Shown here in pieces: positions 24,753-31,876 of a stretch of 64,000 nt of DNA. The notes beneath the pieces were generated by a model, which was not told the DNA's origin, searched no databases, and worked only from the letters and a program-made list of their open reading frames with translations. Origin of the DNA: Tenacibaculum maritimum NCIMB 2154 (GTDB taxonomy: Bacteria; Bacteroidota; Bacteroidia; Flavobacteriales; Flavobacteriaceae); the NCBI RefSeq assembly GCF_900119795.1, contig NZ_LT634361.1, forward strand, positions 2,604,001 to 2,668,000, given 5' to 3'. Position 1 is the stretch's first letter. Each line of letters opens with the position of its first letter. The position numbers and the translations under genes are program-made.

Positions 24753-24760
24753 TATATTTG
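24753..24760 (+). promoter_or_regulatory. -7 box of small RNA unit 1
   Basis: TATATTTG matches TAnnTTTG and sits 4 bases before the first 83-bp unit, as expected for a transcript starting near 24765. The bases upstream also resemble those before unit 2 (AAAAAAATTAGG is shared). Confidence 0.6.
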
Positions 24761-24764
24761 TACC

Positions 24765-24843
24765 AGTTATTCGGAGATATCCGAATACACTTTTTCTTTT
24801 TCATAGCAATTTTCCCGCTCAATTCTTTTGAGTGGGTTTTTTT
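24765..24843 (+). ncRNA. Putative small RNA, unit 1 of a duplicated pair
   Basis: The unit contains a perfect 8-bp hairpin, TATTCGGA-GATA-TCCGAATA (24768-24787), a pyrimidine-rich linker, and a 9-bp terminator stem, CCCGCTCAA with TTGAGTGGG (24814-24836, one G-U pair), followed by seven T residues. There is no usable reading frame. With its own -7 box it looks like an independent transcript of about 79 bases. The family is unknown to me. Confidence 0.6.
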
Positions 24844-24928
24844 ATGCTTTTAGCCTAGCTCCCCTTCCTACCACATAATAACTTTATTTTTTTTCTAAAA
24901 AAATTAGGTTTTACTATTTTTTATTTCG

Positions 24929-24936
24929 TATATTTG
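24929..24936 (+). promoter_or_regulatory. -7 box of small RNA unit 2
   Basis: TATATTTG again matches TAnnTTTG and has the same 4-base spacing to the repeated unit as in copy 1. Confidence 0.6.
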
Positions 24937-24940
24937 CCTT

Positions 24941-25019
24941 AGTTATTCGGAGATATCCGAATACACTTTTTCTTTTTCATAGCAATTTTCCCGCTCAATT
25001 TTTTTGAGTGGGTTTTTTT
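24941..25019 (+). ncRNA. Putative small RNA, unit 2 of a duplicated pair
   Basis: This copy is identical to unit 1 over 83 bases except for one C-to-T change in the loop of the terminator hairpin. The first hairpin is at 24944-24963 and the terminator stem at 24990-25012. The two copies start 176 bp apart. The spacer between them has diverged while both hairpins and the promoter box are preserved. Confidence 0.6.
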
Positions 25020-25138
25020 ATGCCTTTTATTCAAATTACAACAATCACTATGGTGGAGTTTTCCCATAAATTTTAGTAAGGAACTTTATTTTTTATTGAA
25101 GTATTTAGTAACCTCGCTGTCATGGTATCCCTCCTACT

Positions 25139-25640
25139 TTAAGAAGGATCTTTTGCTTTTTGACTCCTTTTTTCTGTACAAACTTTTAAACTACCCTCAA
25201 AAAGTTTGTACAAATTTTCACCTCCATCTTCACAATTATCAAAATCTGAAAAATATTTTTTATTACCTACTAGAATTTTAGCGAAGTGAAATTTATCCAT
25301 AGCGTTAATTATTTTTTGGTCAGTCTTTTTTTCCCACTTATATATAGTATCAACACTCTTGCCATTAACATGTTCTGAACTTGGAAAACACGAACCTTCA
25401 GAAAAGCAACTTCCAGTAGTGGTTATCAAAAACCTCTTCATATTTTACCTCAAACCAATTTTGATGAACAGGCTCGGCATCCATAGCTATATAAAAAGGA
25501 CTGGTTTTTCCTTCGGCTTTGTTTAAGGCGTCTTTGTAGCTTTTATCGGTATGATTGTTAGAAGATGCTAATTTTATTTTACAAATAGCGTGGTTTTCGA
25601 AATCTTTAGCATTAATTATAACATCTTGTATTTTATTTAA
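25139..25640 (-). pseudogene. Decayed orphan toxin module 4 (M15-like peptidase fragment)
   Basis: Read from 25640 leftwards, the frame encodes NAKDFENHAICKIKLAS and then the shared linker GKTSPFYIAMDAEP...FEVKYEEVFDN, stopping soon after. A different frame then carries SEGSCFPSSEHVNGKSVDT, which matches the metal-binding SxHxxG region of the neighbouring M15-like modules. The middle of the toxin domain is deleted and the join is out of frame. The homology begins right at the stop of the 191-aa lipoprotein gene. This is a dead copy at the far end of the effector cassette array. Confidence 0.75.
25175..25212. repeat. TGTACA hairpin repeat, left edge of the effector array
   Basis: TGTACAAACTTTT (25175-25187) and AAAAGTTTGTACA (25200-25212) form a perfect 13-bp inverted repeat around a 12-base spacer. 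Related hairpins recur at 31877-32040 on the other side of the array. Confidence 0.8.
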
Positions 25641-26212
25641 TCCGAAGTAAAACTGTCTATTTCTTTGATAGTACTAATTAATTTCTCCTGTTTTAATAAT
25701 AATTCTTTTTGAGAAAAATCTTGATTTTTTAAATAAATTGTTTCACTTTTTTTTAACAAAAAAGTGTCTATATAAGATACAGTTTCTGATTCATCTTTAG
25801 TGTCATACTTTGTTCTTTTTTCAACTACAAAAAAAGCTTTATTTAAACTATCCTTATAAATAATGAATGTATTAGAAACTCTAAAATCTTTGTCATAAAA
25901 ACTGGTCGTGTACTCTATCTTTTTTTCTTTTGTTTCCATATCTTCTAAAACTTCAATAAAAACTGTCTTATCGTCTTTTATAAAATCCCCACCACCATTT
26001 GGCTCAAGAGTTTCAGATATATCAATTTTTTTAGCTCTATCAATAAATTCATTAATAAAGAAATCTTTTGCTTTTTTATTAAGTACTATTAACGAGTCTT
26101 CGGTAATTAAACTTTTATCCAGAGTTAATGAATTTATATCAGTTCTTTTCTTAAATTTACAATTAAATAGTAATACCAACAGTGTAAGTAATATATATTT
26201 TTTCATCTGCAT
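25637..26212 (-). CDS. Putative immunity lipoprotein for orphan module 3 (191 aa)
   Basis: The N-terminus MQMKKYILLTLLVLLFNCKF is a lipoprotein signal with the lipobox cysteine near residue 18. An ATG at 26206 is an alternative start. The mature part is charged and unrecognised. It follows the M15-like module 3 by 7 bp, and the array alternates toxin module and lipoprotein throughout. An envelope-anchored immunity protein against a cell-wall peptidase fits this. The function is inferred only from position and export. Confidence 0.65.
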   Translation of the reverse strand: MQMKKYILLTLLVLLFNCKFKKRTDINSLTLDKSLITEDSLIVLNKKAKDFFINEFIDRAKKIDISETLEPNGGGDFIKDDKTVFIEVLEDMETKEKKIEYTTSFYDKDFRVSNTFIIYKDSLNKAFFVVEKRTKYDTKDESETVSYIDTFLLKKSETIYLKNQDFSQKELLLKQEKLISTIKEIDSFTSD

Positions 26213-26219
26213 AATTTAA

Positions 26220-27157
26220 TTATTTAAAATTAACTTTGAACTGTCTAGAATGTAGATGGTGGTGATGACCACTTAAATGGTCGCACTTTTTGAGGAGTTG
26301 CTTTTCTTTTTGCTCTTTCTTTAACTCGAATTTATAACTGTAAAATTTTGGCCAACCAAATTTCACAAAAGCATCAATTAACTTTTCCTGTCTTGTTATA
26401 TCTAATTTTTTTGCACCCTCTACAGTATCTATATGAAGACTTGCTCCTGTTTTATCCTTTCTAAAATATCTAAAATCTCCGTGTTTACCATTAACATGTG
26501 TTTTACTAGGGAAGCCATGATTATCTTTACTAGTAAAACCAACTATAACTATATCCTTATATCCAACTCTTGCTATCGCTCCTAAAATACAAGCAAATGC
26601 ATTTGGATGAATATAGGGTCTTGTTCCATCTGATTTAAGACTAAACTTCAAATTAACACCTTCATTATTATAGTCTTTACTAGATATCTTTATCAAAGGT
26701 GTTTTCTTTCCTGTTTTTACATATTTTCGAATTTTACCTGCTTCTTTTCCTTCTTTAGTACCTTCTATTACTATTTTATCATTATAAGTATACTTATTTC
26801 TTTTGTTACTTATTATTTGCTTTTTTGTATATCCTGAAGGAACTGAAGTAGTGGTTTTACCATTTTTATATTCATCAACCTCAATAATATCATAAGTATC
26901 TTTCAAATCATGTTTTTTACCATCCTTATCGTAGTAGACATATTTTACTTTAGCCTTATCTTTTAAATCTACTTTATCTATCTTTCCATTATAATAATGT
27001 AGGCTTCCCCTATTTCGGCTACTTCCTTACTCTTCAACTCAAACCAATTCCCTTCACCATAGTACCAAAGGTTGGGTCTATTATCAAAAACTTCTTCATA
27101 AAATACTTCATACCAACTTTGGTCGGCAGGTTCGGCATCCATAGCTATATAAAAAAA
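26220..27157 (-). pseudogene. Orphan toxin module 3, M15-like peptidase, frameshifted after the linker
   Basis: From 27157 leftwards the shared linker reads MDAEPADQSWYEVFYEEVFD and GEGNWFELKSKEVAE, then runs into a stop. One frame over, the homology resumes with SLHYYNGKIDKVDLKDKAKV and continues through FPSKTHVNGKHGDFRYFRKD to HHHHLHSRQ at the end. H and D of the SxHxxGxxxD motif and the final HxH are kept. The frameshift lies at about 27000-27020. The distal 228 residues could still be read from an ATG at 26906 but would lack the linker. Its linker is more diverged than those of modules 1 and 2. Confidence 0.75.
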
Positions 27158-27321
27158 TGTTTTCTGTAATTTATTTAATAATTTCTTAGACTAATTTTTC
27201 TATTTATTTTAGCTATTGTTAATTCAAGATAATTTTATGTAATCAGTTTTAAAAACTAACCTTATAACAAGCGATTTAAATGTTTAAAATTTATGCTAAA
27301 CCTATACTCATTTAACAATAC

Positions 27322-27981
27322 CTATTTTAAATTACCAATTACGAAAGATGATAAGGAGTCTTTTTTATAAATATATCTATCTATATACTCAGTGAAGCCA
27401 GAGTTTTTAATTTTCCTTATTTCTTTGTCTAACCTCATTATATATTTGCTTTTAGCATCTAAAAAAATACTGTCTGTTACAAATAAATTATTTGTGTTTT
27501 TCCATAAGAATATCTTATCGTTATTAAAAAATAATGAATCCCCTTCAAATATAGCATCATCATTGTATTTTCCTTCAAAAACACATATCAATTTACTTTT
27601 TTCATAAAAAAATAAATATTCTTTATTTATTTTTTTAGCATTAAAATATATTTCCTCTCTAGGATATTTAGGCGTATTCCAAGTAACCAAAGTACCATAA
27701 TCATAATCAGGATGTCCATATACATCACTATTGTCATCTAAAGGATCTTCAAGAAAACCTTTTTTTAATTTTAGTTGAGTACTTTTATAATCTCCAATTA
27801 ATTTCTTATTTATTTTTTTAGGAAATATAGATTGATAATTAGGTTTTGCTATTGCATATTTCGGAATAAATAAACTATCATTTTTCTGTTTTTTTGCTAT
27901 ATTCTTTTCTGATTTTTTTTCTTTACAAGAAAACAAGAGAGCAAGAAAACAAGAAAATAAAAAAATAAAATTGTTTTTCAT
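27322..27981 (-). CDS. Putative immunity lipoprotein for orphan module 2 (219 aa)
   Basis: It begins MKNNFIFLFSCFLALLFSCK, a lipoprotein signal with the lipid-anchored cysteine at residue 19. The mature protein is Lys-rich and unrecognised. It begins 2 bp after module 2, so it is probably co-transcribed with the toxin module as its immunity protein. There is no sequence similarity I can see to the other two lipoproteins of the array, as expected if each matches a different toxin tip. Confidence 0.65.
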   Translation of the reverse strand: MKNNFIFLFSCFLALLFSCKEKKSEKNIAKKQKNDSLFIPKYAIAKPNYQSIFPKKINKKLIGDYKSTQLKLKKGFLEDPLDDNSDVYGHPDYDYGTLVTWNTPKYPREEIYFNAKKINKEYLFFYEKSKLICVFEGKYNDDAIFEGDSLFFNNDKIFLWKNTNNLFVTDSIFLDAKSKYIMRLDKEIRKIKNSGFTEYIDRYIYKKDSLSSFVIGNLK

Positions 27982-27983
27982 AA

Positions 27984-28805
27984 TTATTTATAATTTGGAT
28001 TAAAATTTTCTTTACGAAGGTGTAAATGATGATGATGATTAGCTAAATGAGTAGTATGACTCTCTTTAAGTCTAAAAGTTTTTTTATTTAATATAATATC
28101 ATAACTATAAAAACTACTCCAGCCAAATTTAATTAAGGCATCAATAAACTTCTCTGTTCTATCAACATCTAAATCATCAGGATTAGTGTCTATGCGTAAA
28201 GAAGCAACCTTTTTATCTTTTCTTAAATATCGAAAGTCTCCAGCAATACCGTTATAATGTGATACGCTTGGAGCTCCCGTACCATCTTTTGAAGTAAAGC
28301 CATTTATAGCGACATCTTTATAATCATTTTCTGCTAACGCTCCCAATAAACAAGCATAAGCTTCAGGATTTATATATTCTCTATCCGTATTATCTTTAAG
28401 TGTAATCTTAATACCATTTTTATCATAAGAAATAGGTAATTTCAATTTAATTAATGGTACTTTTCCTATATCGTATTTATAATATCTGACATCTTTTCCT
28501 ACTTTGATTTTTTTCCACTCTTTTTTGTAAATTGAAGAGCCCTTCTTCCGTTTTTGGGCTTTAATAACATCAAATGTTCCTAAATTATGTTTACCACCAT
28601 TTTTATCATGATATACATAGCTAACTTCTTTTAAACCTTTAAAATCCAATTTACTTATTTCTCCTGTATGGTAAATATTCAGAATATTATCTACCTTCAA
28701 CTCAAACCAATTCCCTTCACCATAATACCAAAGGTTGGGGCGATTATCAAAAACCTCTTCATATTTTACCTCAAACCAATTTTGATTAGCGGGCTCGGCA
28801 TCCAT
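27984..28805 (-). CDS. Orphan toxin module 2: linker plus M15-like peptidase domain
   Basis: The frame opens directly at the shared linker MDAEPANQNWFEVKYEEVFD. The C-terminal domain has SVSHYNGIAGDFRYLRKD (H183, D190) and HHHHLHLRKE (about 257-266). This resembles the SxHxxGxAxD...HxH zinc site of M15 D-Ala-D-Ala carboxypeptidase/endolysin-type peptidases. It lacks the N-terminal delivery part of the 467-aa effector. DNA identity with that gene extends upstream of the ATG to 28858. It is likely a silent spare tip that could be joined to the main effector by recombination. Expression as it stands is uncertain. Confidence 0.75.
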   Translation of the reverse strand: MDAEPANQNWFEVKYEEVFDNRPNLWYYGEGNWFELKVDNILNIYHTGEISKLDFKGLKEVSYVYHDKNGGKHNLGTFDVIKAQKRKKGSSIYKKEWKKIKVGKDVRYYKYDIGKVPLIKLKLPISYDKNGIKITLKDNTDREYINPEAYACLLGALAENDYKDVAINGFTSKDGTGAPSVSHYNGIAGDFRYLRKDKKVASLRIDTNPDDLDVDRTEKFIDALIKFGWSSFYSYDIILNKKTFRLKESHTTHLANHHHHLHLRKENFNPNYK

Positions 28806-28858
28806 AGCTATATAAAAAGGACTGGTTTTTCCTTCGACTTTGTTTAAGGCGTCTTTGT
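28699..28858 (-). repeat. Effector linker repeat, copy in module 2
   Basis: This 160-bp block matches 30081-30240 at 159 positions, the one change being G to A. It covers the linker codons and the preceding DALNKxEGKTSPFYIA codons. Outside the block the sequences diverge abruptly. Confidence 0.9.
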
Positions 28859-28873
28859 TTTGTTCTAGAAAAA

Positions 28874-29440
28874 TTAGCCTTCAAAATCTTCGCAACTATG
28901 ATTTTCTAATTTGAACATTTCTTTCTTAGTTATATAGAAGTTGTTTATTCTGAAATCTTCTATTTCTTCAAAATTTTTATTTAATACAATATTATAGATT
29001 GGAGTTGCTTCTATTTTAGTTAAAAACAATATTATTTCTTTGTTATTTTGAACAAAGTATATTTCATATCCTTTATTAATTTTATTGATTTTATTAATTT
29101 TAAAAACTCTTTTTTTAGCTGTTTCACATATGTTTCTCAAAATTAAACTGTTATTAATAAATTTAATATTAGCTATATCACAAGAATAACACGCACCAGA
29201 AAAATCATACATATATTTTTTTAAAGGGTCTTCTTCTTCTTCATTAACAGATAAGCCTATCATATCTTGATTTAAAATTTCTTTTAAATCAAAATCTAAA
29301 TCTTTATTATTTTTTTTCCTTTTTTTTACATCTGTTTTTATTAACTGAATTCTGTCTTTCTCTTGTTGTATAGTTTTTTCTTTTGTAGTTGTTTTACAAC
29401 TAAGAAAAAAAAATAAAATGATAGAGGTAATATATTTCAT
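28874..29440 (-). CDS. Putative immunity lipoprotein for the M23 effector (188 aa)
   Basis: The N-terminus MKYITSIILFFFLSCKTTTK is a lipoprotein signal with cysteine at residue 15. A pair of cysteines (GACYSCD) and a C-terminal NHSCEDFEG are present. I do not recognise the family. It follows the M23-peptidase effector gene by 9 bp. The expected role is to protect the producer's own peptidoglycan from the M23 enzyme; this is inferred from context. Confidence 0.65.
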   Translation of the reverse strand: MKYITSIILFFFLSCKTTTKEKTIQQEKDRIQLIKTDVKKRKKNNKDLDFDLKEILNQDMIGLSVNEEEEDPLKKYMYDFSGACYSCDIANIKFINNSLILRNICETAKKRVFKINKINKINKGYEIYFVQNNKEIILFLTKIEATPIYNIVLNKNFEEIEDFRINNFYITKKEMFKLENHSCEDFEG

Positions 29441-29449
29441 AATAGAAGT

Positions 29450-30853
29450 TTATTTAATTATTTTTTTTGACTTTGAATTGTTGTAGGATTCTTCTAATAA
29501 AGGAAGAGGATCTATTAAGTCTTTTCTTCTTTGAAAACTTCTGTTTTTAGAATAGTTAGATGATTTTGCATACATCATATCACTATATTTTACAGTTTTA
29601 TCTGTTAACTTACCTGTTGCTTCTCCTGTATACATTTCAATATGTAGCATTCCTCTTTTATCTGATTTAGGTTGTTTTATATTTGGTATTAAAAGCCCTA
29701 CTTCTGCAATTTTATCTCCTTTTTTTACTTTATCTCCTTTTTTTACCTTAATGTTATTTTTACTAACTTCTCCGTATCTAACATATAATTTTTTTCCTTT
29801 TTTGTACTCGTAGCTGTGTTCTATTTCAATAGCCCAAGTATCGTAGTAAAAAGCATAAACACTTTTTACAATTCCATCGTCCATAGCATAAATTGACTCT
29901 CCAACTTCATAATATAAATCTCTAGCAGCATGAATACGATTAGAAGGTCTTTTATATCCAAAAGTAGGAGCTTTTTTTTCATGCAAAGTATAATCATAAG
30001 GTTTATAATCATTATTTTTAAAACCATCAGGGTGATTTAGAGGTATAGTTTTAAAAGGAAATAGTAACCCGCCTTTTTCTAACTCAAACCAATTCCCTTC
30101 ACCATAATACCAAAGGTTGGGGCGATTATCAAAAACCTCTTCATATTTTACCTCAAACCAATTTTGATTAGCGGGCTCGGCATCCATAGCTATATAAAAA
30201 GGACTGGTTTTTCCTTCGGCTTTGTTTAAGGCGTCTTTGTATTGTTTGTTTTCTTGTTGGTCTGTAGATTGTAAGGTGATTTTAGCAATGGCATGATCTT
30301 TAAAATCAGCTGCATTGAGCGCATTACTTTTTTGGGAAAACTCACCAACAACCGCCTTAAAAGCAAATACTTTTTTATTATTTTGAGTTACATATATCGG
30401 TTCTTTCGTTGTTGTTAGTGCATCGGTATCTCCTCCTTGTTTTAGGTTTAAAGTTATTTCTCTATCTGGCATATATTGTGTTTGTATAACAATATATACC
30501 TCCTCTCCTAATTGCGCACTGGTTCGTTTGGTAAATTTAATACTTTCCTTTACCAAAGCAATGTCTATACAGTCGCCTTTAGTATAATTGCTTTTACTTA
30601 ATGCTGCTACAACCTGTTCTAAGCTTGCTTGTTGTTTATTAATGAGTTTTCCTTGTAGGTTTTTATAAATTATTTTGGCTATTTTACGTTTTCTTTTTTT
30701 AGTTCCCGTGTTATTATTTCCCTTAAAAGTATAAGAAATAGCCTCTGTTGTTTTTTCGGTACTTACAATTTCTTTTTTAGCAAAATAAGCCGTTTTTACC
30801 GTTTGTACTTTTATATCGAGGGAGTTGCTAGGGCGTACTATTAAATTTTTCAT
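29450..30853 (-). CDS. T6SS-associated effector with C-terminal M23 peptidase domain
   Basis: The 467-residue protein has an N-terminal region (1-215) resembling the C-terminal extension of the adjacent Hcp. Then comes the shared linker (about 223-258: MDAEPANQNW...GNWFEL) and an M23 peptidase tip. The tip shows H308-A-A-R-D312, a Gly/Lys-rich strand with KKGDKVKKGDKIAEVG, and MLHIEMY (H404, E406), the zinc-site pattern of lysostaphin-like endopeptidases. There is no signal peptide, which fits T6SS delivery. It starts 5 bp after the Hcp gene. The likely target is peptidoglycan of competitors. Confidence 0.8.
   Translation of the reverse strand: MKNLIVRPSNSLDIKVQTVKTAYFAKKEIVSTEKTTEAISYTFKGNNNTGTKKRKRKIAKIIYKNLQGKLINKQQASLEQVVAALSKSNYTKGDCIDIALVKESIKFTKRTSAQLGEEVYIVIQTQYMPDREITLNLKQGGDTDALTTTKEPIYVTQNNKKVFAFKAVVGEFSQKSNALNAADFKDHAIAKITLQSTDQQENKQYKDALNKAEGKTSPFYIAMDAEPANQNWFEVKYEEVFDNRPNLWYYGEGNWFELEKGGLLFPFKTIPLNHPDGFKNNDYKPYDYTLHEKKAPTFGYKRPSNRIHAARDLYYEVGESIYAMDDGIVKSVYAFYYDTWAIEIEHSYEYKKGKKLYVRYGEVSKNNIKVKKGDKVKKGDKIAEVGLLIPNIKQPKSDKRGMLHIEMYTGEATGKLTDKTVKYSDMMYAKSSNYSKNRSFQRRKDLIDPLPLLEESYNNSKSKKIIK
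30081..30240 (-). repeat. Effector linker repeat, copy in the main effector gene
   Basis: This is the 160-bp counterpart of 28699-28858. Shorter or diverged copies lie at 27036-27157 and 25423-25537, giving four copies in the array. Confidence 0.9.
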
Positions 30854-30858
30854 AGTGT

Positions 30859-31611
30859 TTAATTTGTTAAAATTTCTCTATCTTCTTCTTGCTGTGCGAC
30901 TACTTTTAGCTTTATTTTATGGGTATTGGCGGTAATATGAAAGTTTTTAATACAATCATCTTCAATTCGTTCACCATTATATATAAAATCTTTGGTATGA
31001 TTGCTAAGGTCAATAGTTATGATTTGTCCTATTAAATTTTGAGTGCTTACTACTGCATATATTTCCTCTCCTGTAGTGGGGTTGGCTTGTGTATTCCCTT
31101 CTAAGTCCGTATAAAAACACTTCATTCGAGGCCTCGTATCCTCCATGCTTTGAGGTTTGTATTCGTGCCTAGGAGTCCAAGACTCATTCCAAGATTTAAT
31201 TAATGGAGGTAGGTTTTTAAAATATTGTATAGCAGCAGAAAGCGTTAGCTCAGTAATCATTCCCCTTTGTACATCAAAGTACTCCTTATAATAAATAGGC
31301 AAGCAATCAACTAACTTATATTTAAAAAGGATTTGCCCATCAAAATCGTCTTGATAAAATACCACTTCGGCATTTTTTAAAGTATATAGGTTATAAGGAT
31401 ACGCAATCGTTTTATCCTCCATTCTATGTGTAAACATCCATTTTAAAATATGATCTTCCTCTCCTTTGGGTGTAAAAAAAACAGTAACATACCCGCCAAG
31501 AGTTTCAGTAGCTGGTCTTCCTGTTTTTCGAGTATAGCGCTCGTATTCTACCAATACATGTTGTAGTATTCTCTCTACATTTCCAATATATAATTTAGCA
31601 ACAATAGGCAT
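30859..31611 (-). CDS. tssD: Extended Hcp/TssD tube protein of a Bacteroidota type VI secretion system
   Basis: The first 130 residues follow the TssD pattern: MPIVAKLYIGNVERILQHVL, then RPATETLGGYVTVFF, WMFTHRM, and a CLPIYYKEYFD strand, as in Hcp of T6SS subtype iii. A C-terminal extension of about 100 residues follows, ending in a domain (EIYAVVSTQNLIGQIITIDL) also seen in the effector downstream. I start at the ATG at 31611, because the family begins MxxxAKL there; a longer frame to 31674 adds residues with no family match. It is the first gene of the cargo operon. No other T6SS structural genes are in the window. Confidence 0.75.
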   Translation of the reverse strand: MPIVAKLYIGNVERILQHVLVEYERYTRKTGRPATETLGGYVTVFFTPKGEEDHILKWMFTHRMEDKTIAYPYNLYTLKNAEVVFYQDDFDGQILFKYKLVDCLPIYYKEYFDVQRGMITELTLSAAIQYFKNLPPLIKSWNESWTPRHEYKPQSMEDTRPRMKCFYTDLEGNTQANPTTGEEIYAVVSTQNLIGQIITIDLSNHTKDFIYNGERIEDDCIKNFHITANTHKIKLKVVAQQEEDREILTN

Positions 31612-31876
31612 TCTTTTACTTTTTAATAACAGTTTTTCTTCTTCAAATGTATTTAAAAAAACAATAAAAAACAAAAATCTAAAAATAAAAATACAAAGGC
31701 TAGTGTGTTTTAAATGAGCGGCTTTTGATTCACAGCGTATAACTACGTATTCTTATAAAAGTACAATTACGTAGCACCAAAAACAAAGTAACAATATTCT
31801 TTATTTTATTTGTTTTTTGTTTTTTTTGAAAAAGATTAAACACATCTCTTTTAGTTATATAAATTGGGAGGCTTCC

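Follow-up and report, generated by a model that had tools for sequence, protein, structure and literature searches.

The two near-identical 83-nt units found in the window, i.e., the whole 64,000-nt stretch of Tenacibaculum maritimum NCIMB 2154 DNA analysed here, are quite probably genes of an independently transcribed non-coding RNA of about 80 nt, which belongs to a family near-universal in Flavobacteriaceae and would act in trans through its unpaired linker. Comparison of the family members establishes a common predicted layout, in which a promoter box is followed by a covarying 5' hairpin, a conserved single-stranded linker and an intrinsic terminator.

The twin units and further copies in the T. 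maritimum genome

The first-pass annotation of this DNA had described twin 83-bp units with a single difference, each preceded at 4 bp by a promoter box, each containing an 8-bp hairpin with a GATA loop and a strong terminator, separated by a diverged spacer and devoid of any reading frame. All these elements were borne out (Table 1). The units are identical except at one of their 83 positions (24825 in copy 1, 25001 in copy 2), which lies within the terminator loop, and the gap between the TATATTTG box and the unit is of exactly 4 nt in both copies. The spacer 3' of the units is alike at 28 of 81 positions, and an intermediate similarity (32/44) is found in the promoter region directly 5' of them. 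Each unit folds with an energy of -24.6 kcal/mol (z = -5.7 and -6.1) that was equalled by none of 200 shuffles, and four terminator-like sites are present around the twin units, versus 0.4 expected from shuffles. No notable ORF was found at the twin units on either strand, the longest within a unit being of about 40 aa. A small opposite-strand ORF (MKKKK...), considered as a possible conserved peptide, was rejected since it results from the sequence of the linker, and the part that follows varies together with the hairpin.

Table 1. Positions of the RNA elements and of neighbouring features within the window
Feature	Position	Strand	Basis
83-nt unit, copy 1	24765-24847		
83-nt unit, copy 2	24941-25023		
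-7 promoter box copy 1, TATATTTG, Bacteroidota-type (TANNTTTG)	24753-24760	+	sequence; box common among members
-7 promoter box copy 2, TATATTTG	24929-24936	+	sequence
5' hairpin copy 1, TATTCGGA gata TCCGAATA, perfect 8 bp	24768-24787	+	folding; 8/8 pairs covary among members
5' hairpin copy 2, same as copy 1	24944-24963	+	folding
Unpaired linker copy 1, CACTTTTTCTTTTTCATAGCAATTTT, containing the invariant core TCTTTTTCATAGCAATT	24788-24813	+	member alignment
Unpaired linker copy 2, same as copy 1	24964-24989	+	sequence
Intrinsic terminator copy 1, CCCGCTCAA ttctt TTGAGTGGG + T7, 9-bp stem	24814-24843	+	folding; 6-7/9 pairs covary
Intrinsic terminator copy 2, 9-bp stem + T7, one loop change (25001)	24990-25019	+	sequence, folding
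RNA model R2 match copy 1, 92.4 bits	24767-24842	+	covariance model
RNA model R2 match copy 2, 92.3 bits	24943-25018	+	covariance model
Type VI secretion island	25139-31674	-	
M23-peptidase gene	29450-30853	-	type VI island
Hcp (TssD) gene	30859-31674	-	type VI island
tmRNA gene, tag GEDNYALAA	593-984	+	

The two units are real but do not form a mere pair, as the word twin had implied, ten further copies being present elsewhere in the genome. Indeed, the search for additional copies suggested along with the original description retrieved many across Flavobacteriaceae and, when BLAST of the pair, a pattern search admitting up to three mismatches and a covariance model were combined, a total of 12 in T. 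maritimum. The window pair is joined by three tandem copies near 3.4157 Mb, by five solitary ones (0.903, 1.202, 1.414, 1.976 and 3.171 Mb), and by two diverged members with a different terminator at 0.865 and 0.868 Mb. The 20-mer TTTTTCATAGCAATTTTCCC is exactly conserved in ten copies, and the exact TANNTTTG box precedes nine of the 12, with TANNTTTA in two more. The arms of the 5' hairpin vary between copies (TATTCGGA, ACTTCGGA, GTTGGA, GTGGTT, AAGAAATAG and others), pairing being always kept.

At 1.976 Mb, dnaJ is followed after 61 nt by a copy that is therefore likely the ancestral one, the window pair being part of the expansion. The neighbours of the other copies differ, and include RNase P RNA, malate dehydrogenase, Rhs and VgrG genes; RNase P RNA, recognised by sequence, adjoins a T. 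maritimum copy as well as copies in Aureibaculum and Lutimonas. The expansion copies at 0.865 and 0.868 Mb (L026, L027) and at 1.202 Mb (L010) adjoin Rhs or VgrG genes, and the window pair adjoins an Hcp island. In the copy next to malate dehydrogenase (L014, ≈0.9027 Mb), which has no clear TANNTTTG box, the linker word TTTTTCATAG occurs twice in succession, and the same doubled-word form was observed in Tenacibaculum relatives (L049, L055, L063, L068 and L116).

Conservation and distribution across Flavobacteriaceae

The anatomy of the RNA was analysed on 57 members that the model had found in about 50 genomes. Of the 57, 52 have a TANNTTTG box in the 25 nt upstream, which in 43 cases is 3 or 4 nt away from the start of the model match, so that the near-fixed distance noted for the window pair also holds across the family; the frequency of the box in control windows was 1.9% (3.1% if AT-rich). 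Standard pairs occupied 98.6% of the pair cells, versus 67.1% in shuffles, and changes on both sides of a pair were counted in 313 cells versus 89. Comparable values (97.1% versus 63.5% of standard pair cells) were obtained with the alignment of 83 members, mostly pattern-found, produced by the covariance model R1, which was built from seven T. maritimum copies. In both alignments, compensatory changes affected every one of the eight pairs in the 5' hairpin, which is present in nearly all members, and six or seven of the nine terminator pairs (seven in the 83-member alignment).

While these flanking helices change freely, the sequence of the linker (UCUUUUUCAUAGCAAUU) stays constant among the 57 members: its core TTTTTCATAGCAATT is identical in 56 of them and is preceded by TC in all, an invariance that was partly favoured by the search, since the model R2 itself gives weight to the linker. 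An unpaired stretch that almost never changes between helices that do is probably the working part of the RNA. The selection on a transcript that had been proposed from the preservation of the units is thus supported, on comparative grounds, by the compensatory changes in both helices together with the conserved unpaired linker.

A scan with the linker core, in which the core is invariant by construction because loci were obtained by its exact match, identified the same architecture, often in tandem, in named genomes of Tenacibaculum, Polaribacter, Lutibacter, Flavicella, Aureibaculum and Lutimonas. The covariance model R2 was then run on whole genomes of the genus, the family and the class. 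It matched 116 of 117 genomes of the window's genus, with 1-16 copies each, which fits the suggestion that duplicated copies may act as redundant or additive regulators and makes of this genus, with up to 16 copies, a natural dosage experiment. In Flavobacteriaceae, a family of marine and soil bacteria, matches were obtained in 255 of 299 genomes and in 205 of 236 genera, mainly as a single copy; 44 genomes had no match and, since R2 rewards the linker, some members whose linker has diverged may have escaped detection. Among 395 genomes drawn across the class, R2 gave beyond the family only two borderline matches (L311, L312), both without the linker. Genus g128 has mostly lost the RNA, several of its species (G243, G513, G604 and G631) being without it even with permissive settings and a sister species (G657) keeping it after dnaJ, and this genus would be a useful natural knockout set. 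Six matching stretches, five of them confident by the model, were also found in viral contigs, and annotated phage and plasmid collections gave no match at E ≤ 0.01. One of the viral contigs, L328 (IMGVR_UViG_2914569100_000001), carries two confident copies of 44-45 bits.

In all of the ten single-copy loci read in detail, the gene order was grpE, dnaJ, RNA, ABC-transporter ATPase and permease (Pfam check at one locus). The usual place of the RNA, as read from these genomes, is a single copy downstream of dnaJ. Since nearly all sampled genera of the family have the RNA, usually once and at a constant position, a clean deletion should be possible in many species. In five loci from one group of genomes (L255, L259, L261, L264 and L267) the word AAAATTGC (AAAATCGC in L267), complementary to the linker stretch GCAAUUUU, was observed just 5' of the start codon of the ABC-transporter gene.

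Predicted mode of action and competing explanations

The features described above make it very likely that the RNA is a trans-acting regulator. In the mechanism we propose, the RNA would act at a distance from its own locus, the 5' hairpin and the terminator would guard its ends and keep the linker open, and the linker UCUUUUUCAUAGCAAUU would be the active site, most likely by base-pairing with target mRNAs. Extra copies may raise the dose or, because each has its own promoter, add a different control of expression. Between mRNA pairing and protein binding as the way in which the linker works, we give the former about an even chance.

The first-pass annotation had pointed to the pyrimidine-rich linker for target prediction, an approach that did not lead to any consistent target, either at gene starts or by exact matches. 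The exact 11-mer GCTATGAAAAA has 22 matches in the T. maritimum genome, 11 of which are the RNA genes themselves and two of which fall at convincing gene starts. Linker duplex energies against 295 gene starts were -6.98, versus -6.72 for shuffled linkers (sd 0.34), with no excess. A 14-mer search in 149 family genomes returned, among the 30 matches inspected, unrelated genes and no consistent target. At single-copy loci, pairing with the grpE, dnaJ or natA mRNAs gave weak, clade-limited hints, and no neighbour emerged as a consistent target. As for partners, Hfq, ProQ and RRM_1 proteins are the usual ones of small RNAs in bacteria or in Bacteroides; neither Hfq nor ProQ was found in the T. maritimum genome, and no RRM_1 protein (PF00076) was detected in it by a search whose control in a Bacteroides was positive.

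The lack of a pairing signal at gene starts, together with a linker invariant well past the 7-8 nt usual for a pairing seed, is what would be expected if the RNA mainly bound a protein, as a CsrB- or 6S-like sequestering or scaffold RNA, the U-rich linker being where the protein would attach. Multiple copies would also suit such a role, more copies titrating more protein. However, the obvious partners are missing from the genome and none is known, and each RNA offers one U-rich linker, unlike CsrB with its many GGA hairpins, so that we consider this explanation rather unlikely, though the best placed among the alternatives. In either case, the near-constant linker provides a ready bait for an unknown RNA-binding protein or for the set of targets.

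A more specific form of pairing would have the linker serve as an antisense start-codon site, complementary to GCUAUGAAAAAG (Met-Lys-Lys), and block the translation of many mRNAs of exported proteins. The linker complement does read AAUUGCUAUGAAAAAG, a typical signal-peptide start, the malate dehydrogenase copy has the UUUUUCAUAG word twice, and genes starting with MKK, MKN or MKR pair more strongly with the linker than the others (-8.6 versus -6.8). Nevertheless, gene starts showed no excess over shuffled linkers and the extended matches fell on unrelated genes in different genomes, which makes this improbable.

The position of the RNA at single-copy loci, where it ends in a terminator and is followed at about 60-500 nt by the ABC-transporter gene on the same strand, recalls a cis-acting leader (attenuator or riboswitch) of the next gene, copies elsewhere being stray, and at this ancestral place a local role may exist. 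On the contrary, in several single-copy genomes a separate TANNTTTG box, located after the RNA, precedes the start of the ABC-transporter gene, the neighbours of the other copies differ as listed above, and at least six of the 12 T. maritimum copies precede a convergent gene, another copy or no same-strand gene. A cis role therefore cannot explain the family and, as not all members have a same-strand gene directly downstream, it was rejected for the family as a whole; we regard it as very unlikely.

A dispersed intergenic repeat of REP or MITE type carrying a chance hairpin, a reading encouraged by the 12 copies, scattered or in tandem, of a single genome and by the stretches in viral contigs, is less plausible still and was ruled out by dnaJ synteny (most of the family has the RNA once, at a constant location), by the promoter box and terminator at fixed distances and by hairpins that differ in sequence with compensatory change, the phage and plasmid collections without match also counting against it. 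The unit does occur at many loci, as the first-pass annotation had foreseen for a simple repeat without promoter box, but here 11 of the 12 copies carry the box in its exact or variant form.

The trans-acting regulator thus stays the preferred reading. Somewhat more tentatively, it might be a core regulatory RNA of the whole family, placed beside dnaJ, operating without Hfq, ProQ or an RRM protein and with a linker almost unchanged over about 200 genera, which would imply a universal target or else, in Flavobacteriaceae, an RNA-binding protein not yet known.

Comparison with known small RNAs and genomic surroundings

To our knowledge, little is known about small-RNA regulation in Bacteroidota, where the usual chaperones are absent. 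The closest likeness is with FopS (GibS) of Bacteroides thetaiotaomicron, which has 14 paralogous copies of about 65-70 nt with own promoters, a conserved seed and an intrinsic terminator (PMC11697453). The RNA described here comes from the same phylum and is likewise multicopy (12 copies here, 1-16 in the genus), similar in size and endowed with own promoters, a conserved unpaired stretch and a terminator. On the contrary, FopS has an unpaired 5' end with no 5' hairpin and its partner is the RRM protein RbpB (PMC11697453), whereas the present RNA has a covarying 5' hairpin and no RRM_1 protein was found in T. maritimum; we therefore consider it FopS-like in outline and, going by the description of FopS, do not file it as such.

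Rfp18 of Flavobacterium psychrophilum, also a conserved small RNA of the same family with a predicted structure, is described with three or more stem-loops, the third of which is its pairing region (PMC9723704). The present RNA has two helices and an open linker, with no third stem-loop, and is set apart from Rfp18 by the description of the latter; the comparison covers this one among the 85 Rfp RNAs of F. psychrophilum, and identity with one of the other 84 is possible. Among structured RNAs, Flavo-1 (RF01705) has been listed for Bacteroidetes (PMC2864571). The units and the member loci gave no match at gathering score against the 4227 families of Rfam 15, Flavo-1 included, in agreement with the original failure to assign the units to a known family.

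Near-identical sibling copies that share a seed and vary in the remainder are known from LhrC, Qrr and OmrAB (cited in PMC11697453). The likeness lies in the several copies with a common seed, and the difference in the phyla, which are other than the present one. Several of these siblings are documented as Hfq-dependent, and Hfq was not found in T. maritimum. No description was retrieved from the literature, whether searched by linker sequence or for an RNA of this type. As far as these comparisons go, with FopS and Rfp18 set apart by description only, the units represent a real and new small-RNA family, of a kind that is known, while the family itself, its anchoring to dnaJ, the near-invariant linker and the expansion are new.

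The twin RNAs are adjoined by a type VI secretion island on the opposite strand, which contains, in addition to the Hcp and M23-peptidase genes, several unannotated small genes, possibly effector and immunity genes. In this island a module beginning MDAEPANQNWFEVKYEEVF is repeated, and nearly identical stretches, some 90-140 nt long, recur at offsets of 1382, 3321 and 4703, a pattern that looks like cassette shuffling.
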